From Nanobdellota archaeon (GTDB taxonomy: Archaea > Nanobdellota > Nanobdellia > Parvarchaeales > Parvarchaeaceae), in assembly GCA_021852265.1 (NCBI GenBank), contig JAJZNV010000022.1, positions 45,617 to 84,121 on the forward strand: DNA of 38,505 nt, read 5' to 3'. Within the stretch, counting starts at the first letter, position 1; every line of letters starts with the position of its first letter. The position numbers and the translations under genes are program-made. Below are positions 17,242 through 38,322 of this stretch, one piece after another. A model generated the notes under the pieces. The model did not search any database, was not told the DNA's origin, and worked only from the letters and a program-made list of their open reading frames with translations.

Positions 17242-18003
17242 TTACTTTTTAGTCTGTTTCATTAATAAATCCTTAGTAGCATCCTTCAATTCAAAAGCTT
17301 TCCCAGTACAAAAATCCACTTCTTCAGGAGTGAAGAAGCCACTGCCACCCTTCTGTATGGAATTTATTTTTTCCCCGACGCCCAGAGTGAGTCTTGCACT
17401 GGCGACATTCTCTTCTACGGCACTAGGGTCATAAAATATGGAATTATTTACCTTTGCAAAAGTATGGCTAACTGCCAGTTTATTGAAGTCCAGTGGGAGC
17501 GGAAGCTTCTGCTCCTGACCTTCTATTTTATACCTAGCATCTAGAAGCGCACTGAGTGCGGCGATATTGCACGCGTCCAAAAGGTTTCCCTCATTATTTA
17601 GCGCGAAGACATCGATGTAAACGAATAATACCTTTTTACCGACCTCGATCACTAATTTTTTCAGGTCTATAAGATTTGATTCACGTATCCCTCTGTCTGT
17701 TACTCTTGCGATCTCCACGGAATACATGATCCTGTCCGATGGATAATTAGTGCAAAGTTCTGATGCCTCAAAATTGACTATGAGCCCTCCTTCATCTGCA
17801 CGGTCCGGAAATGGCTCTCCGGGCAGCACTTTTACCCCTGCCAGCACTTTCGTACCGCCAAGTTCAAGGTATGCGGAGCCATCGGAGTGGTTTATCACAC
17901 CATTTTTTATAGTTAATTTCCTTCCCTCGATAGGCTTTCTCTCGTCTAACCTTATCGCCTCAGCGGCTATCTCCTTCACATACTCGTAGTTTTCGAGACT
18001 CAT
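17242..18003 (-). CDS. rrp42: Exosome subunit Rrp42 (non-catalytic RNase PH-like ring subunit)
   Basis: 253 residues of the RNase PH fold. Features are RLDERKPIEGRKLTI, then GSAYLELGGTKVLAGVK, GLIVNFEASELC, RVTDRGIRESNLIDLKKL and DVFALNNEGNLLDACNIA. It forms the hexameric ring with Rrp41 and supplies RNA-binding surface but not the catalytic aspartates. The start overlaps the FAU-1 stop by ATGA. In most archaea Rrp41 and Rrp42 are adjacent; here they are separated by FAU-1. Confidence 0.94.
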   Translation of the reverse strand: MSLENYEYVKEIAAEAIRLDERKPIEGRKLTIKNGVINHSDGSAYLELGGTKVLAGVKVLPGEPFPDRADEGGLIVNFEASELCTNYPSDRIMYSVEIARVTDRGIRESNLIDLKKLVIEVGKKVLFVYIDVFALNNEGNLLDACNIAALSALLDARYKIEGQEQKLPLPLDFNKLAVSHTFAKVNNSIFYDPSAVEENVASARLTLGVGEKINSIQKGGSGFFTPEEVDFCTGKAFELKDATKDLLMKQTKK

Positions 18004-19316
18004 ATCTTGCTTGCTTCCCCTAATGATTTCTTAAGGTTGGTCTTCAATTCAGAGCTTATCTCACCCTTTTTGAACAGCTTTTCTATCCTCTCTTCATTTA
18101 GGACTGTTACATTCCCGTTCTCATGTTTTGCAGTAACGTCAAAAGTCACTATCTTTGTGAATTTCGGGAAAATCTCTGGCTTAAGCGTCAGGACTCTCTC
18201 CTCCGAATCGCCGCGTTTTATTGTGACATAACTTTTATCGGCGTCTATGGTGTAACTCTTTTCACCCCAGTCATTCCTGCTGCTGATCTTTAATTCCTTT
18301 ACATTTTCATCTTTTATATTGACATCGTCCAGCATCCCATCGACTTTGTAAGAGGTTCCGTTAAGACGCGTGAACATTATACGGTATAGCTTGCCCTTCG
18401 TGGGACCGTACCTCAAGAGGGTTTCGTTTACCTTCTTTGTCATCTCCGAATCGGAGCCTTTGCCCATAATATTCTCAGCAAAATCGGTAAGTATTGTATA
18501 ACCGGCCGATTTGAGTATATGGTGGTTTGGTATCGTTGGCATCACTGATTTTCGGATCTTGTCCAGCTTTGCTTTATCATCCTTGTCAAAAAGCGTGAAG
18601 TATTTGTCTACGCCTTCGTACAGTGTGGCAGGTTCATTACACCCATTGAATTTTTCGGTTATCTCTTTCTCTTTTTGCATCAAGTCGCTGAGTTCCTGTT
18701 TAAGCACTGATTCTTCTTTGTTCTCGGCACCCTGTACCCATAATATCCCCCAGTCCTTAAGGTCAAGCCCTTTTGCAATCTCATAAAGCTTGTCTCTCCC
18801 CTCGTGCGAGCGTATACCCTTACTCATCTTTGTGAATCCATTCTTTATTATGACAACGTCTTCACCGAATATCCTTAACTGCGTAGACAGCATTATCTTG
18901 CCGTCGTATGTGCCTTTAGACTGCACAAGTATCTTCGAACCGGGCTTGACGTAACCCCAGAAGTTCTTGAGATCCAGTACGCCTTCTTCGTCATCCGGAA
19001 GGGAGATTACTATGGATTTCGATTTCTGGTCCGTGTTTTTTATTATACCGCAATACATCTTGCCTATGTCTTCCTTAAAGAACACACTATCTTTCAGATG
19101 TTTTTTTAGAGTATCTATGACCTTGCCCGGAGAGGAACCGTAAACGTATATGCCCTCCTTCATCTCCATATCTTCTATCATTACATCTGGTGCCGATTCA
19201 TCACTTAATTTCAGAGCCGCCTTTATCGCGTCTGCGGCCTGTGTTATTTCTACACCTTCATCAATAAGCAGTTTTGTTATTGCAGTTGAATATATTCCTC
19301 TAACTTTGACTTTCAT
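18000..19316 (-). CDS. fau-1: FAU-1 family RNase E/G-like RNA-binding protein
   Basis: 438 residues. The opening MKVKVRGIYSTAITKLLID is the FAU-1 signature. An S1-like barrel region follows (GMKYCGIIKNTD type), then the central region GFTKMSKGIRSHEGRDKLYE. The C-terminal part contains LRYGPTKGKLYRIMFTRLNG and resembles DUF402. The Pyrococcus homologue binds A/U-rich RNA and processes 5S rRNA precursors. The gene overlaps rrp41 by 17 nt and rrp42 by 4 nt, so it is translated as part of the exosome block. That position strongly suggests a shared role in RNA processing. Confidence 0.82.
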   Translation of the reverse strand: MKVKVRGIYSTAITKLLIDEGVEITQAADAIKAALKLSDESAPDVMIEDMEMKEGIYVYGSSPGKVIDTLKKHLKDSVFFKEDIGKMYCGIIKNTDQKSKSIVISLPDDEEGVLDLKNFWGYVKPGSKILVQSKGTYDGKIMLSTQLRIFGEDVVIIKNGFTKMSKGIRSHEGRDKLYEIAKGLDLKDWGILWVQGAENKEESVLKQELSDLMQKEKEITEKFNGCNEPATLYEGVDKYFTLFDKDDKAKLDKIRKSVMPTIPNHHILKSAGYTILTDFAENIMGKGSDSEMTKKVNETLLRYGPTKGKLYRIMFTRLNGTSYKVDGMLDDVNIKDENVKELKISSRNDWGEKSYTIDADKSYVTIKRGDSEERVLTLKPEIFPKFTKIVTFDVTAKHENGNVTVLNEERIEKLFKKGEISSELKTNLKKSLGEASKI

Positions 19317-24797: not shown

Positions 24798-24922
24798 TTT
24801 AGTATAGTGATATAAGGTTGTATATAAGCGTTGATTCTGCCCAAATTACGGACAAATTTGTAATAAATATATGTTTTTCCACGCGTAAAACCTTAAATAG
24901 GAAGTCTCTTCAAAACAATAGG

Positions 24923-27088
24923 ATGGGAGGGCTAAAACCGACTGCTACTCAGATTACTCATAAAAAAATTACTTTATCTGATATTATTGCAGATAACGAT
25001 TTCTGGCTAAACCATTTCAAAGACACCTCCCAGCTGCCGAACATCCTGCATAAACCGGAAACAGAGGAGGAAGCGCTAAATTCGCGTTTCCAGTACAATC
25101 CATTTGACGAAATAGTAGGACATGAGGAAGAAAAAGACGTTGCGATTAAACGCGTATATTGGGTTCTCTCACAATTTAGAAAAATGCACTTGGCACGGGA
25201 AAAACTGGAAAGCGAAGGAAAGAAAGAGGATTATCCTTTCGGCGATTCCATTATAGATATACTTGCCCGGGAATTTCCCGCAATGCCGATGATAGTCAGA
25301 AGCGGTCCTTACGGTGGCACAAAAACGCTGCAGCAGAAGGCGGAAAAAGAACTTTTTTACATGCTGAGGGATTCGTTTGGAATCACTGGAAGGGATTACT
25401 ATACAAAATACGATAAAGATTCGTCACTTGAATTTTTACTTGTAGACAAATCTTCCCCTAACGGTAAGGAGGACATAGATAAGTTCGAGAGAGAACAGGC
25501 TCAGATGAGAAAGCTGAAGCACTACGGGATAAAGGGCGCACTATATACAACAGGTGCCTTCATAGGTGTCGCCCTTGCCAATATAATCATATCCAATTAC
25601 TATCTTGCTGAATATTTTGGGGTAGATTCACTAACGTGGGTTACCGAGGGAGTCGTCTCTGAGCTAATCTACCTCGCTTACGCATCGGTTATCGGCATGG
25701 CTGCCACACTTGGCTATTTTGTGAAGAGATTTTTCAGTAAGAATAAGAATAACGATCTGAAACGATTATCATTAGGGAGTGATATGCCACGGACGTACAA
25801 AGGTGCAGAATCTCTTGAGAGTTTAATAGGATCTTACGACAAGGATGCAAAAGATATATCGCCACAGTTCAAACTTCGCAGTGTTGGAGACCTTTTGACG
25901 GCTAATGAGGGTGTTTTTGTAGTCGAGAACCTCAATGCCCTCTCAAAGGAGGTTCAGCATGCATTGGCACAGCAAATTGAAGAGAAATACGTCGACCTTG
26001 CAAACCTTAAGATACGAAAATTCTGTTATGTTTACCATTCGTTTGGATTAAACACAGAAAAGACTTCAGAGCTTGAGGAGTCACTCAGGAACAGGCTGAA
26101 TTACGCCGTGAACCTGTATGTTAAAAATGAGATAAAAAGGAACACTTATAATGAGCGCCACATGGCACTTTACTTGAGATTTAAGTCGAGCCAGGGCGGC
26201 AATATCCCCTGGAAATCGGATGCCTGGAAAGAGCTTCTTGATTACTGTTCCAGACTCGCTGGAAATGCAGGTGAGTTAAGGATAGACAGGGGAGTAATCA
26301 GCGTAATCGAAAGGGCGCAAACCGTCGCCAAAGAAAGAGGTTCGGATAGTGTGGGGCTGCAGCACCTATTGGACGTTGAAAGAGACTATCTTTCTTTTGT
26401 ACAAACACCTCTTACGGAGAGGCTGCGCGATTTTTCGCTTGAACATGCATTTAAACCTGGCGAGGGAAGTGAAGTCGGTGTAGTGCATGCACTCATAAGT
26501 TATCATGATACGGTTTTAAACGACTCATCTGCCGGGAAAGCCAGGTTCGATAAAAACCACAATGAGGATTACAGTGCATACATACGAAGTGAGGATTACG
26601 TCGGGTATGCAATGAGGACCACTGCACTCGCAAAGCGAGTCGCGGATGGAGAGAAAGGGAAGATAAGTATAACTGCTAGTGACGGCAGCGGCATAGATGA
26701 AGCCCGATATGTTAAGCTGTTGGCACCATTATTTTGGCATACCGACTTGTCAAGGTATAATATTCACATAGCCGTAGAGTCACCGGCTGATGATGACACG
26801 GTGCTGTCAAGCATGTACGTAGCTGTCAGATCAGCGATCGAAAATAAACCGATTCGCCAGGATAGATATATAGCATTAAAATTAATAGAAACCGGACGGC
26901 TTGGCTCTGTGCCACGCCTGAATTCTAGGATGGGCGCAATTCCTGGCGTTGGTGGCCAGAAAATAGTGGTGTCAGATACGGACTATAACCGCAAGATCCT
27001 AACTGCCAATGGAAGATCTATATACCGAGAAAATAATGCCGTTTCAGTTTCGAACCTCGATGTACTCATGTCGGTGATGCAGGCATAA
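24923..27088 (+). CDS. LonB-like membrane AAA+/protease homologue with degraded active sites
   Basis: 721 residues from the ATG at 24923, which lies 27 nt after a TATA-like CTTAAATAGG; earlier in-frame codons would be in the promoter. The architecture follows archaeal LonB. FDEIVGHEEEKDVAIKR comes first, then a Walker A-like GPYGGTKT (128-135), two membrane segments inserted in the AAA domain (about 206-225 and 244-268), a Walker B-like VFVVENLN (331-338), a sensor-2 region ELEESLRNRL, and a Lon-type C-terminal domain. Key residues are altered. The third glycine of Walker A is Thr, and the Walker B DE is EN. The Lon GDSAS motif aligns with DDTVL (Thr626), and the catalytic Lys spacing after GG is changed (GGQK, K680). 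IHIAVES and ENKPIRQD still match LonB. Likely a non-proteolytic scaffold or adaptor. Confidence 0.75.
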   Translation: MGGLKPTATQITHKKITLSDIIADNDFWLNHFKDTSQLPNILHKPETEEEALNSRFQYNPFDEIVGHEEEKDVAIKRVYWVLSQFRKMHLAREKLESEGKKEDYPFGDSIIDILAREFPAMPMIVRSGPYGGTKTLQQKAEKELFYMLRDSFGITGRDYYTKYDKDSSLEFLLVDKSSPNGKEDIDKFEREQAQMRKLKHYGIKGALYTTGAFIGVALANIIISNYYLAEYFGVDSLTWVTEGVVSELIYLAYASVIGMAATLGYFVKRFFSKNKNNDLKRLSLGSDMPRTYKGAESLESLIGSYDKDAKDISPQFKLRSVGDLLTANEGVFVVENLNALSKEVQHALAQQIEEKYVDLANLKIRKFCYVYHSFGLNTEKTSELEESLRNRLNYAVNLYVKNEIKRNTYNERHMALYLRFKSSQGGNIPWKSDAWKELLDYCSRLAGNAGELRIDRGVISVIERAQTVAKERGSDSVGLQHLLDVERDYLSFVQTPLTERLRDFSLEHAFKPGEGSEVGVVHALISYHDTVLNDSSAGKARFDKNHNEDYSAYIRSEDYVGYAMRTTALAKRVADGEKGKISITASDGSGIDEARYVKLLAPLFWHTDLSRYNIHIAVESPADDDTVLSSMYVAVRSAIENKPIRQDRYIALKLIETGRLGSVPRLNSRMGAIPGVGGQKIVVSDTDYNRKILTANGRSIYRENNAVSVSNLDVLMSVMQA

Positions 27089-27089
27089 A

Positions 27090-27806
27090 ATGGAACTTCA
27101 TAGTAAACCGGAAGAACAGATAATAGAGGAAGAGTGCAAGAAATTGGCGAATAAGAAGCTGAAGGATGACTTAGAAAAAATAATCGGAACTGCATATAAT
27201 CTCCTGCCGGTTGGGGTAATGCCTGCGGAATCCTATCCCCAAATAAAGAAAGGACATAAATATTTCAATGAAAGACTTGCCAACATCATATCTGTCGCAT
27301 ATGAGGGCATACTAGGTGCATATCTGGTAAGCCAGCCGACGCTTTCGTACGTTCAGAATATGACCTTCAATGGCCTGGCTCCTGGTTCACAGTTTACAGC
27401 GCCGGTATTCTCTATAATGGTACCCGAACAGGCATTTTTGGTTGCGGGTGCGTACCTTCTCCTTGATGTAACAAGACTGGCAGGATTATACTTTGATAAG
27501 CCGTTAGGGACACTTGCTGCTGAAGCAGTTGTACATGCAAGGGATTGGCTAAAACTAAAGCTGTTAAAAAGGGATGGAAAATACATGAACGAGGCGATGA
27601 GGAACATAACGGACAAGCTCGAAACCAATAGGCACATAAATAGTGAAATAGAAAAAGAAGACCTGCGAAAAACACTTTGCGGTCTTCAGGAACGGCTTTA
27701 CTGGAGTGAGGGTCTGTACCCCGTCGAAGAATACGAACTGACATTCAGGGTAAACGAACTGCGGAAGCAGCTTGGCATGGAACAAATAACCTACAATAAA
27801 AAATAA
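27090..27806 (+). CDS. Unknown membrane protein co-transcribed with the LonB-like gene
   Basis: 238 residues, starting 1 nt after the LonB-like stop, so probably translated from the same message. It has a charged N-terminal helix, a hydrophobic segment around residues 70-85, a second around 110-128 with a loop rich in small residues between them, and a charged helical C-terminal half (KLLKRDGKYMNEAMRNITDK and onward). I recognise no family. Tight coupling suggests the two products form a membrane complex. Confidence 0.62.
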   Translation: MELHSKPEEQIIEEECKKLANKKLKDDLEKIIGTAYNLLPVGVMPAESYPQIKKGHKYFNERLANIISVAYEGILGAYLVSQPTLSYVQNMTFNGLAPGSQFTAPVFSIMVPEQAFLVAGAYLLLDVTRLAGLYFDKPLGTLAAEAVVHARDWLKLKLLKRDGKYMNEAMRNITDKLETNRHINSEIEKEDLRKTLCGLQERLYWSEGLYPVEEYELTFRVNELRKQLGMEQITYNKK

Positions 27807-29843: not shown

Positions 29844-29930
29844 CCCGAAATCGGCTCGAGTTTAACTGCTCCTCACTAATTTAATAGCTAAAAAGCTTAA
29901 TAATACATTGAAAAGTTAATACATTTAGAT

Positions 29931-30021
29931 GCCCCGATAGTCTAGAGGCCAAGGACATCGCCCTTTCGATCAGTTATCGAGAGGACAGGCGATGACCCGG
30001 GTTCAAATCCCGGTCGGGGCA
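29931..30021 (+). tRNA. tRNA-Glu (anticodon TTC) with 18-nt intron
   Basis: The acceptor GCCCCGA/TCGGGGC is perfectly paired, with discriminator A. The D arm is GTCT/GGAC. The anticodon stem is TCGCC/GGCGA, with loop CTTTCGA after removal of an intron at the canonical position 37/38. The T arm is CCGGG-TTCAAAT-CCCGG. The mature length is 73 nt. Its 3' end is the attachment site of the element that follows; integration leaves the gene intact. Confidence 0.93.
29969..29986 (+). other. tRNA intron with relaxed bulge-helix-bulge
   Basis: The 18-nt intron begins ATCAGTTATCGAG and lies between position 37 (G) and 38 (A). Flanking 3-nt bulges CG|A and AC|A are separated by a 4-bp helix (CTTT with GAGG, including two G-U pairs). 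The longer pairing CGAT/ATCG around loop CAGTT also folds the precursor. Cleavage by the archaeal splicing endonuclease is expected. Confidence 0.72.
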
Positions 30022-30023
30022 TT
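30009..30023 (+). repeat. Attachment site copy 1 (3' end of tRNA-Glu)
   Basis: CCCGGTCGGGGCATT, made of the last T-stem bases and the acceptor 3' strand of tRNA-Glu. It is repeated exactly at 33283-33297, in the same orientation. This is the expected signature of tyrosine-recombinase integration into a tRNA 3' end. Confidence 0.85.
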
Positions 30024-33862: not shown

Positions 33863-35791
33863 ATGGATGACGCTGAACTAAAATGGAAGAACAAAAATAC
33901 ACAAATAGAGAAGATTTCGCTTCCATTTCAAAAGATAGAAGAAGTGAATTTATCTAATGCTGCCAAGGGAACACTTCTGCCAGAAATAAGAGAAACCGAA
34001 GAGGCCGCATGGAAAAATAAACTAATCTGGGGGGATAACAAGTATATCATAAACTCACTTCTTAAAGATGAAACCGTGGCAGGAAAAATAAAATTAATTT
34101 ATATAGATCCGCCGTTTTTCACCGGCACGAACATGAACATAAACATTAGCATTGGTAGCAAAGCGGAAGTTACAAAAGAACCATCTGCAATAGAAGAAGT
34201 GGCTTACAGAAACATGTGGAAAGAAGGGGTCTCATCTTTTTTACAGTATATGTATGAAAGAATAAAACCGATGCGAGATCTTCTTTCTGAAGATGGGGCG
34301 ATATATGTTCGCTTTGATTATCATTATGCGCATTATATAAAGTTAATACTCGATGAAATATTTGGATATGAAAATTTCAGAAACGAAATAATTATCAATC
34401 GCACGAGGAAAAACGTAATGGAATCCCAAACTCAGAGAGTATTTCCAACAGCTACAGACTCCTTATTTTTATATGCTAAAAGCGAAAGCGCATTGTTGAA
34501 CCAAGTGGTTAAGAAGATGAGTGAAAAGAGGGAAGCCTTTTGGAGACACATGGATGATTCGGCTGGTCAAGGAGGGCCAAAAATATTTTTTGGCAAGCAG
34601 CTTTCTCCACCAGTTGGAAAGCACTTCAAATATTCACAAGAAAAAATAAATGAGATGATTTCGGAAGGTAAGTTGAGATTAAAATGCAAAGAGTGTGGCT
34701 ATGAGCACACTAAAGGCGAATGGAGAAAGTGTCCTAAATGTAAAAAAGACAATCCAAAACCAGAATATTTTGTTGCTGAAAAGGAACATCAATTAATCGA
34801 TACTAATTGGACGGATATCCCGGGCTATTCATTTAGTACTGGCTACCCCACAGAGAATTCAGAACAAGTTTTAGAACGAGTAATTTTAGCTTCGTCAAAA
34901 AAAGGAGATGTTGTAGCAGATTTTTTTGGAGGATCTGGTACGACCGCCGCCGTAGCAGAAAAATTAGATAGGAGATGGATAACTTGTGATATAGGCAGAT
35001 TTTCTATACACACAATGAGAAAAAGACTACTTGAGATACCAACATGCCAACCATTTGAAGTTCTAAATTTGGGAAAATATGAAAGACAACAATGGATCTC
35101 AGAAAATACAAAGGGAGACTATAACTCTTATATTCTTTTTATTCTACAGCTGTATGGCTCAAAACCATTAGATAATTTCTCTTTCATCCATGGTAAAAAA
35201 GGCTCTAAAGCAGTTCATATTGGTCCTATAGATTCTCCAATTTTAAAGGAAGAAATTTGGAATGCTTTGAAAGAATGTAAAAGTGCGGGATTTGGCGACT
35301 TAGACATTCTCGGTTGGGAGTGGGAACTGGGACTAAACGATTCTATAATCAAAGAAGCTAAAGATGAATTTAATGTAAGTTTGGCGTTGAAAGTTATTCC
35401 TCGCGAGGTAATGGATAAACGCGCTACAGACGCTGGCGATGTTAAATTCTATGAGCTTGCCTACTTAAAAGCTAACTTAGAAGCAAAAAAACTTAATGTT
35501 AAGGTAAAACTTGATAAATTTATAATACCAAACGTAGATGAACTGCCGAAAGAAATAAAAGAAAAGGTCAAAAGCTGGATGGATTATATAGATTATTGGG
35601 CGGTGGACTGGGATTTTAATGGTACCTTTCATAATGAGTGGCAAACATACAGAACTAAAAAAGACTCTAAATTAGAGTTAGAGACTCCTTTACATGAATA
35701 TAATAAAAAGGGGAAACGAAAAATACAAATAAAGGTCATAGACATTTTTGGAAACGATACAAGTACCGTAAAAGAGGTTTCCTTAGCATGA
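33863..35791 (+). CDS. mod: Type III-like adenine-specific DNA methyltransferase (Mod)
   Basis: 642 residues, N6-adenine methyltransferase of the beta class: catalytic motif IV IDPPFFTG (81-88, Phe in place of the usual Tyr) comes before the SAM motif DFFGGSGTT (353-361). Between them, in the target-recognition region, is a zinc ribbon with cysteines 275, 278, 290 and 293 (CKECGY, then CPKC). The C-terminal 240 residues end in KIQIKVIDIFGNDT, a domain common in archaeal and bacterial Mod proteins paired with Res. Mod supplies both methylation and DNA recognition for the complex. The stop overlaps the res start by ATGA. Confidence 0.92.
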   Translation: MDDAELKWKNKNTQIEKISLPFQKIEEVNLSNAAKGTLLPEIRETEEAAWKNKLIWGDNKYIINSLLKDETVAGKIKLIYIDPPFFTGTNMNINISIGSKAEVTKEPSAIEEVAYRNMWKEGVSSFLQYMYERIKPMRDLLSEDGAIYVRFDYHYAHYIKLILDEIFGYENFRNEIIINRTRKNVMESQTQRVFPTATDSLFLYAKSESALLNQVVKKMSEKREAFWRHMDDSAGQGGPKIFFGKQLSPPVGKHFKYSQEKINEMISEGKLRLKCKECGYEHTKGEWRKCPKCKKDNPKPEYFVAEKEHQLIDTNWTDIPGYSFSTGYPTENSEQVLERVILASSKKGDVVADFFGGSGTTAAVAEKLDRRWITCDIGRFSIHTMRKRLLEIPTCQPFEVLNLGKYERQQWISENTKGDYNSYILFILQLYGSKPLDNFSFIHGKKGSKAVHIGPIDSPILKEEIWNALKECKSAGFGDLDILGWEWELGLNDSIIKEAKDEFNVSLALKVIPREVMDKRATDAGDVKFYELAYLKANLEAKKLNVKVKLDKFIIPNVDELPKEIKEKVKSWMDYIDYWAVDWDFNGTFHNEWQTYRTKKDSKLELETPLHEYNKKGKRKIQIKVIDIFGNDTSTVKEVSLA

Positions 35792-38322
35792 GTAGCCCAT
35801 TCGAAGAACCAATCGATAGAATGGCGACTTTAGCACCACTAGTACCGAAAATCAGAGAAGAAGTAAATAAGTGGCGCGCAGATGGCTATCCGGGAGCTTC
35901 GGAAACAACTAATTCATTATTAAACTTCTGGTTCAATGAAGACCATAAACAAAATGAGAGATTTTTCCGCTACTATTTTTGCCAACGAGAAGCTATCGAA
36001 ACCCTAATATACTTATACGAAGTGAAAAAATTTAGGCGACTAGAACAATTAGTAAGAATTTATGATACAACAAAAAAGGTAGCCTATAATCCAAATGAAG
36101 ACTTATTCGCAAAATACTGTTTTAAGATGGCTACTGGAACAGGTAAAACAAAAATAATGGCATTAGCCATTGTTTGGTCTTTTTTTAAGAATATAATAGA
36201 TAAAGATGACGCATTCGCAAAAAACTTCTTAATAATGGCACCAAACATAGCCGTTTTCGAAAGACTAAGGAGCGATTTCGAAAGTGGAAAAATTTTAAAA
36301 TCGGACCCATTGATTCCTGAGGAACTCCAAAGTTATTGGGATGTAGACTTTGTAATGGCGGATGAGATAACTAGCAAATCATCTAAAGGAAGAGTATATC
36401 TTACGAACGTTCAAAAATTATACGAGAGAAACGCTGCTAATGAATTAAATCCAATAGAAAAATTGATTGGCACAAAACCGAATGATGTAAAAACTGCATA
36501 TGAACTAATATTTAATGATATTATAGAAGCAGATAGCTTAGCGATTTTTAATGATGAAGCACATCATGTTTGGGATCCCGATTTAAAATGGAATAAGATT
36601 ATTACTGGTTTATATGAGAAATTTTCGGCCAAAAATAAAACCTTTTCTTTTCAGTTAGATTTTTCTGCTACACCTAAACGACAAGATACGGGTTCATTAT
36701 TTCAATGGATAATAGTAGACTATCATTTAATGGACGCTATTAAAAATGGTGTCGTCAAACGTCCTTTAATCGGCGATATAGAAAACGCGAGAGAAGTTCC
36801 ATCATCAAAAGCGGACATAAGATATAGAGATTATATTGAGGCAGGAATTCGCAGATTTAATAAATATAAAGAAAAGTATGCACCGTTAGGCAAAACGCCA
36901 GTTATATTTTTTATGGCTACAAACACAAAGGAAGCTGAAGATGTGGCAGATTTTCTCAATAAGAAAAATGAATTCAAAAATAAGATTTTGCTAATCCATA
37001 CTAATTTAAAGGGGGATATAAGTGACAAAGAATGGACAGAATTAAAAGAAGAAGTAAAAAATTTAGATTTTACAGATGGAAAATATTTAGCTGTTGTAAG
37101 CGTTTTAATGTTAAGGGAGGGTTGGGACGTTAAAAGTGTTAATGTAATTGTTGGGCTTAGACCTTATACTTCAAAAGCAGATATTCTACCTGAGCAAACT
37201 CTGGGACGCGGATTAAGGTTGCTATTCGGCCCAGAATCCGGGTACTCTGAAACCGTCGATATTTTTGGTTCGTCTGGATTTATAACGGCTATAGATCAAA
37301 AACTGCAGCAAGAGGGAGTTAAAGTTGAACACGTTAAAGAGAAAGATTTCCAAGACATAACTAATATTTTTGTAGATCCAAATAAAAAACGTTTGGATAT
37401 CGAAATTCCATTAATAACACAAAAATATACGAGAACTAGCAGACCATTAAACGATCTAAAAATAGAAAACCTACCTAAAAAACTATTTTCATTAGACATT
37501 AACCAATACTCAATAACAAAAACTGCTAGAGGAAAAGATATTCTAACTAAAAAGCAAATATGGAAAGAAACCTGGAAACAGCCTTCGCCAGAGAATTTCG
37601 AAGGAATAATAAGTTATTTTTCATCGGCTATTCTAAGAGAGTGTAAAATTCCATCCAGAACTAATGAGTTAATCCCAAAAGTAGATGATTATATAACTAA
37701 ATACCTATTTGATCGGCCATTAAACGATAAAGACAAAAAAGACGATCGATTCCTTAATAGACTAGTTGAGCCAGGGGTATTTCAAATTTTATTAGAGATT
37801 TTCCCTGAAGAAATAAATAAACTTACCATCTCTCCACAAAAAGTAAAATTAGAAAACAGAAATCGTAAAGCTTCACAAGTGCAGCCATTTTTAACTAGGA
37901 AAAAAGTCTATAAGCCACAAAAATGTATTCTTAACCTTGTTCCGGTTGCAAATGACTTGGAACTTAGGTTTTGTGAATTTCTTGATAGGGTTAAAGATGT
38001 TAAAAAATTCATAAAAAATGATGTTAACCTTAACTTTTATATCGAATACGTTAATTCAATGGGGGGAATTTCGTACTATCAACCCGACTTTATTGTGGAA
38101 ACAACAAAAGGCACGTTTTTAGTTGAAACGAAGGGCTTTGAAACTGAAGACGTTCCAAGAAAAGATAAGCGTGCTACTGAGTGGTGTAAGGATGTTTCTA
38201 AATTAACAAAAAATAGCTGGTGTTATCTAAAAGTAAAACAAGACGCATTTGATGTAAACGTTAACGTAGCCACGTTTGAGAAATTTGCTAAAATAATGCA
38301 AGTTTATAACAAGACAAAATAA
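35788..38322 (+). CDS. res: Type III-like restriction subunit (Res): DEAH helicase plus PD-(D/E)XK nuclease
   Basis: 844 residues, ATP-dependent translocase and endonuclease partner of Mod. Walker A is ATGTGKT (115-121), DEAHH is at 256-260, SAT at 293-295, and the helicase motif VI region is PEQTLGRGLRLLFG. The C-terminal nuclease has D767 in YQPDF and E780-x-K782 in VETKG, so PD-(D/E)XK is complete. All catalytic residues look intact, so the system is probably active. It starts inside the last codons of mod (ATGA), which ensures balanced synthesis. Confidence 0.93.
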   Translation: MSSPFEEPIDRMATLAPLVPKIREEVNKWRADGYPGASETTNSLLNFWFNEDHKQNERFFRYYFCQREAIETLIYLYEVKKFRRLEQLVRIYDTTKKVAYNPNEDLFAKYCFKMATGTGKTKIMALAIVWSFFKNIIDKDDAFAKNFLIMAPNIAVFERLRSDFESGKILKSDPLIPEELQSYWDVDFVMADEITSKSSKGRVYLTNVQKLYERNAANELNPIEKLIGTKPNDVKTAYELIFNDIIEADSLAIFNDEAHHVWDPDLKWNKIITGLYEKFSAKNKTFSFQLDFSATPKRQDTGSLFQWIIVDYHLMDAIKNGVVKRPLIGDIENAREVPSSKADIRYRDYIEAGIRRFNKYKEKYAPLGKTPVIFFMATNTKEAEDVADFLNKKNEFKNKILLIHTNLKGDISDKEWTELKEEVKNLDFTDGKYLAVVSVLMLREGWDVKSVNVIVGLRPYTSKADILPEQTLGRGLRLLFGPESGYSETVDIFGSSGFITAIDQKLQQEGVKVEHVKEKDFQDITNIFVDPNKKRLDIEIPLITQKYTRTSRPLNDLKIENLPKKLFSLDINQYSITKTARGKDILTKKQIWKETWKQPSPENFEGIISYFSSAILRECKIPSRTNELIPKVDDYITKYLFDRPLNDKDKKDDRFLNRLVEPGVFQILLEIFPEEINKLTISPQKVKLENRNRKASQVQPFLTRKKVYKPQKCILNLVPVANDLELRFCEFLDRVKDVKKFIKNDVNLNFYIEYVNSMGGISYYQPDFIVETTKGTFLVETKGFETEDVPRKDKRATEWCKDVSKLTKNSWCYLKVKQDAFDVNVNVATFEKFAKIMQVYNKTK

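Follow-up and report, generated by a model that had tools for sequence, protein, structure and literature searches.

The window analysed here, a stretch of 38,505 nucleotides (G000:C4:45617-84121), comes from a 777-kb source genome (G000) assembled in 26 contigs. On its forward strand, an open reading frame running from an ATG at position 24923 to a stop codon that ends at 27088 encodes a 721-residue relative of LonB, hereafter pseudo-LonB or pLon, as judged from profile, structure and model matches. A TTG further upstream, at 24818, would lengthen the product to 756 residues, an extension that lacks alignment support. One base past the pLon stop, and on the same strand, a second frame (27090-27806) encodes a predicted membrane protein of 238 residues and no known family, referred to below as the partner.

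Several other features of the window deserve mention in their own right. At 33863-38319, a DNA methylase gene of the N6_N4_Mtase family adjoins a ResIII gene, and the two look like a type III restriction-modification system carried by a very small archaeal genome. A gene for an RNase E/G family protein (18003-19316; Pfam E 2.8e-8) lies near the proteasome alpha gene and adjoins an RNase PH gene (17245-18003). Finally, ARAGORN reports a tRNA-like gene of 93 bases at 29930-30022 with an ambiguous, two-base anticodon.

Relationship of pLon to LonB

The pLon product matches the LonB family model TIGR00764 over residues 375-698 with an E value of 1.5e-11 and a score of 43.6 bits, far below the curated cut-off of 516.6. 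Searched as a single sequence, it finds the Lon protein of T. onnurineus (3k1j, E 3.5e-9), and a profile of the pLon family compared with solved chains retrieves 3k1j (2.5e-14), 4zpx and 1xhk, all of which are archaeal Lon proteins. A template-free model of moderate quality (pLDDT 60, pTM 0.50) has its top match in 4zpx (Z 18.0 over 289 residues, rmsd 4.0), followed by 3k1j (Z 17.9 over 439 residues, rmsd 6.5) and then by MtaLonC (Z 9.8). Matches of the RuvB, NtrC and exosome types at Z values of 8 or less, among the best 50 rows, were taken as background from a common fold. Pfam searches returned sub-threshold matches only, including one to LonB_AAA-LID (E 0.094). Neither the AAA nor the M41 domain of FtsH was matched in Pfam or NCBIfam at E<=1, and the BrxL protein of BREX systems was matched neither there at E<=1 nor in PADLOC at E<=0.1. 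With archaeal Lon proteins ranking first both by sequence and by model, pLon is a true, if highly divergent, homologue that lies closest to LonB.

The order of domains is that of LonB: an AAA+ domain carrying a membrane insert, a lid and a Lon protease domain. The insert (25535-25705) sits between Walker A and Walker B and is formed, according to hydropathy and the model, by two helices at residues 205-223 and 243-261. Both are weakly hydrophobic, with peaks of 1.71 and 1.57 against 2.4-2.8 in canonical LonBs of the genus, and other pLons have one or two helices above the hydropathy cut. The first-pass annotation had described the frame as a genuine LonB homologue retaining the full layout with its membrane insert, and both statements are borne out.

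Descent from LonB is clear, but membership of the family as a protease fails, and the canonical forms of Walker A, Walker B and the Ser-Lys dyad are all missing from the window's pLon. By alignment, Walker A (25304-25327, residues 128-135) reads GPYGGTKT, with Thr replacing the Gly that precedes the retained Lys134, while Walker B (25925-25930) has E335-N336 instead of DE. Thr626 (26798-26800) occupies the place of the catalytic Ser and Arg669 (26927-26929) that of the catalytic Lys, which is Arg in every covered member of the family. The absent third Gly, the EN pair, Thr626 and an out-of-register Lys680 had all been noticed earlier, and each observation holds, the Lys position being that of R669. 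The accompanying verdict that both sites are degraded is correct as to the losses but understates what has been kept; the Walker A Lys, the sensor-1 Asn377 (26051-26053) and Arg391 at the Arg-finger position (26093-26095) are invariant in the family.

Fixation of the losses across homologues

Orthologues of pLon occur in eight of the 28 genomes of the genus, including the source genome; the seven further copies have open frames and are 34-43% identical to that of the window. Beyond the genus, four genomes representing three other families of the class (G032, G355, G449 and G472) carry the gene, bringing the count to 12 of 378 genomes and four families in all. A match in G092 was removed from this count as a canonical LonB with all motifs present. 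The pLon of YF1.bin22 is near-identical to that of G027. The motif frequencies below are based on members whose contig covers the site in question, with the near-identical YF1/G027 copies among them, and the G449 and G472 rows were scored visually.

Walker B lacks its DE pair in all 12 covered pLons, reading EN in ten and EQ in two, and the Lys of the protease dyad is replaced by Arg in 13 of 13. Greater variation is seen at the Ser position (Thr in three, Ala in six and Ser in three of 12). The sensor-1 Asn and the Arg of the Arg finger are each present in 12 of 12, as is the Walker A Lys in 11 of 11. The Gly before that Lys is kept in four of 11 members (G006, G004, G032 and G472), two of which, G032 and G472, belong to other families, and it is replaced in the remaining seven, including the window's copy. 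In all ten pLons covering it, the segment HDPFQSGGLGTP, which we take to be pore loop 1, is shorter by five or six residues. Among canonical LonBs of the genus, all eight positions checked are unaltered in 24 of 24 rows, a count that excludes the LonB of G012, which is in two pieces.

These substitutions allow some predictions. The exchange of Lys for Arg should abolish protease activity in every covered pLon, even where the Ser is kept, because the dyad mechanism needs the Lys. Loss of hydrolysis is probably the older event, with decay of Walker A following later, in the genus, since the copies of G032 and G472, from outside the genus, have a classical P-loop and yet already carry the amide in Walker B.

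The pLon frames are open over the whole gene in all eight genus genomes, one of them being ended by a contig edge. Between pairs other than G027/YF1, dN ranges from 0.13 to 0.76 and the finite dN/dS ratios lie below 1, but dS is saturated in all pairs except one, so that the statement can only be qualitative. The partner genes of G012 and G024 give a dN/dS of 0.13. Evolution of pLon is nonetheless fast, its identity being 34-70% across the same seven genomes in which that of the canonical LonBs is 72-85%. Sequencing error is rejected on the recurrence of identical losses in independent genomes, and a pseudogene on the open frames and purifying selection. A comparison of homologues had been proposed as a check on the degraded sites; it shows the losses to be fixed throughout the family, with EN or EQ in 12 of 12 members and Arg in 13 of 13.

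The pLon and LonB trees disagree in detail, and the LonB tree, which contains one clade of 15 rows without pLon, is itself partly unresolved, so that either loss or transfer may lie behind the patchy distribution of pLon. As a separate observation, the pLon of G032 (L017 1369-3365) is broken at a run of A into two frames that overlap, which error, a programmed shift or decay might each explain, and an M50 protease gene follows about 160 bases downstream on the same strand.

A membrane protein linked to pLon

The partner, which the first-pass annotation had overlooked, is modelled with low confidence as two predicted membrane helices on either side of a beta hairpin, followed by a C-terminal tail that is also helical. 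The model is poor (pLDDT 62, pTM 0.37); against the PDB it gave no match at E<=0.001 and no convincing fold match, and the sequence reached no Pfam or NCBIfam family above the curated cut-off and no solved relative. Its helices are weakly hydrophobic, and in some members none rises above the hydropathy cut.

The linkage between the two genes is tight. A partner homologue adjoins pLon in seven of the eight genus loci, that of the window included, and the pLon stop and the next start overlap or are separated by at most one nucleotide in all eight of these loci and in two other families. In G000 and G006, the locus has the same neighbours, namely aldehyde dehydrogenase and proteasome genes. Taking the pLon and partner surveys to cover the same 378 genomes, as their sizes and listed genomes agree, 11 of the 12 genomes with pLon also have the partner, although one of the 11 has no more than the C-terminal tail, and the 366 others have none. 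Fisher's test, ignoring kinship, returns 2.5e-20 for this co-occurrence, a value that overstates the evidence because eight of the 12 pLon genomes belong to one genus. G472 is the best independent point for the pairing; a profile built without the G472 row recovered its partner, and the first 153 bases of the contig encode the C-terminus of a pLon, dyad Arg included. G032 gave no partner match.

In G022, the slot of the partner is taken by a 636-residue protein that shares just the ~48 C-terminal residues with it, at E values of 2.6e-5 and 5.8e-4 for profiles built without G022. This protein (L052 8172-10079) shows a HEYSH motif on inspection, no family match was found for it and, once the tail is removed, none of the other 54 genomes in the 55 searched yields a relative. 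When a profile of the tail, with the G022 sequence among its members, was run against the 28 genus genomes, its eight strong matches fell in exactly the eight genomes with pLon, while five further genomes gave weak matches only (best E 0.006). The tail may be a module by which proteins dock to pLon.

In G355, G449 and G472, the pLon and partner genes are followed by a third (L116 2071-3174, L127 749-1876 and L065 from 1217), encoding a protein of about 370 residues that has a hydrophobic N-terminal stretch and is predicted to be membrane-anchored. It possesses conserved DFEAY and LEA motifs and matched no known family. As the gene was found in these three genomes only, among the 378 of the class, two families have a three-gene module where the genus has one of two genes.

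Canonical LonB in the same genomes

An active LonB paralogue had been suggested as something to look for in the source genome, and an active-looking copy was found on another contig (G000:C25:21522-23393). It scores 807 bits, and its GIPGTGKS, FIDE, EGDSAS and GGVNSK motifs are intact. A LonB above the cut-off is present in 25 of the 28 genus genomes and in seven of the eight that carry pLon, the one carrier without it being G024, an 84% complete MAG. The source genome also encodes a third, S16-like protein with a Lon domain (L006; G000:C6:7640-8083 within a 635-residue frame), which looks exported. It has an N-terminal signal-like stretch, a Lon_C match above the Pfam cut-off and a C-terminal hydrophobic helix, and its Ser and Lys motifs are apparently intact, making it a candidate exported Lon-like protease.

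A structural role and its alternatives

The reading we favour, with about as much belief as doubt, is that pLon forms a membrane ring dead for both hydrolysis and proteolysis that works structurally with its partner. By this account, a LonB paralogue would have become a membrane-anchored pseudoenzyme that most likely still assembles into an AAA+ ring. Replacement of the catalytic Glu by Asn or Gln, with the Walker A Lys, sensor 1 and the Arg finger kept, is what would be expected of a ring that binds ATP without burning it; lacking the catalytic Glu, such a ring would not cycle and would stay in one resting state. Nucleotide is probably bound by the less decayed members, but in the window's pLon and six others binding may be lost too, given that these seven of 11 have another residue in place of the Gly that precedes the Walker A Lys. 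With the pore-loop segment shortened and the Ser-Lys dyad gone, substrates would be neither pulled nor cut.

What remains to such a ring would be to hold, assemble or gate the two-helix operon partner at the cell membrane, joined in two other families by the third, membrane-anchored protein. The tight gene coupling suggests pLon as a scaffold or gate for the partner, and the almost perfect co-occurrence of the two points to a two-component membrane complex, although co-occurrence is no proof of contact. The predicted helices of both proteins are weakly hydrophobic, with fewer than two above the cut in some members. The first-pass annotation had proposed a new role for a dead LonB, as scaffold, chaperone or regulator of an active LonB. 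Since every homologue covered shares the losses, a role other than proteolysis, kept up by selection, is indeed the best reading, and the evidence suggests that pLon and its partner are now a structural or regulatory membrane machine rather than a protease; regulation of the active LonB is a possible but unlikely role.

In laboratories, AAA+ rings are trapped in the ATP state by changing the Walker B Glu to Gln. More tentatively, one may picture pLon as an evolved LonB ring resembling such a trap, static or switch-like, that carries the partner and elsewhere an exported, anchored protein. This could possibly be a surface or transport assembly, a complex dedicated to DPANN archaea.

An unlikely alternative is that pLon serves the active LonB as a regulatory subunit, entering mixed hexamers through its Arg-finger and sensor-1 surfaces and lowering or redirecting proteolysis. 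The retention of these inter-subunit residues and the presence of LonB in seven of eight carriers would suit this idea. Nevertheless, the interface should restrain a subunit of the same ring, and pLon diverges far more than LonB between the same genomes; moreover, pLon has a dedicated partner, and LonB is found with or without pLon. Slightly less likely still is a chaperone that turns ATP over slowly at a rewired site, using the Glu that stands in for the Asp of Walker B, and remodels or inserts membrane proteins without cutting them. The Walker A Lys, sensor-1 Asn, Arg finger and one Walker B Glu are invariant, and human LONP1 offers a precedent, with a chaperone-like activity that, in the parts of PMC8368198 drawn on here, requires ATP hydrolysis and not protease activity. 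The amide at the catalytic Glu position in every covered member, the shortened pore-loop segment and the further decay of Walker A in seven of 11 argue against it.

The patchy spread of the module, in eight of 28 genus genomes plus four genomes of three further families, and linked genes that are not known outside it could also suggest a mobile or defence cassette, which we consider improbable. The shared neighbours in G000 and G006 speak against such a cassette, PHROGs gave no match and PADLOC just a weak one to an AAA domain (E 0.0017). A viral origin is rejected, since searches of viral_contigs for relatives of pLon, of the partner and of the third gene all came back empty. That pLon is simply decaying without function, as the lost active sites and the split G032 copy might hint, is very improbable in view of the open genus frames (one ended by a contig edge), purifying selection, the linked partner and invariant columns distant from the active sites.

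Comparison with known systems

Several known proteins can be set beside pLon. With archaeal LonB it shares the domain order, a membrane insert placed between the two Walker motifs, the lid and the Lon protease fold, and it differs in lying far under the curated cut-off, in its N-terminal and other insertions, in having lost the catalytic Glu, the pore-loop segment and the Ser-Lys dyad, and in possessing a dedicated partner. The Lon-like domain of RadA/Sms, which is inactive and not a protease, also has the Lon protease fold (model match Z ~8), but it belongs to a RecA-type motor without a membrane insert. The literature searched, in which most subscription journals are not covered, yielded neither a described LonB pseudoenzyme nor a pLon-partner pair. 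In the sections consulted, a review of archaeal membrane proteases treats LonB as an active and essential protease, and the word "inactive" is absent from them (PMC9263693).

MtaLonC, as described in excerpts of PMC3391209, is a Lon-like hexamer without ATPase activity that still binds nucleotide, and it shares with pLon a degenerate AAA+ site. LonC retains protease activity and is free of membrane segments, whereas pLon has lost the protease and kept the weakly hydrophobic membrane insert, sensor 1 and the Arg finger. The D1 domain of Pex6 is, according to part of PMC6696164, an AAA+ domain without a functional Walker B, where Thr and Ala stand for Asp and Glu; unlike pLon, it belongs to the double-ring Pex1/Pex6 motor and not to Lon. 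The pLon and partner genes offer a defined pair for testing how an AAA+ protease ring is put to structural use, and they come from organisms with a largely uncharted membrane biology. There is an analogy of role with the FtsHi proteins of the chloroplast envelope, pseudo-proteases in complexes thought to serve substrate transport (PMC9020784, in part). Like pLon, they are protease-dead relatives of a membrane AAA+ protease, although the likeness extends to role only, as FtsHi comes from an unrelated protease family (HEXXH) and from a eukaryotic organelle. Inactive AAA+ proteases are thus known from organelles, and pLon would be a LonB-derived case in which both halves are apparently off.
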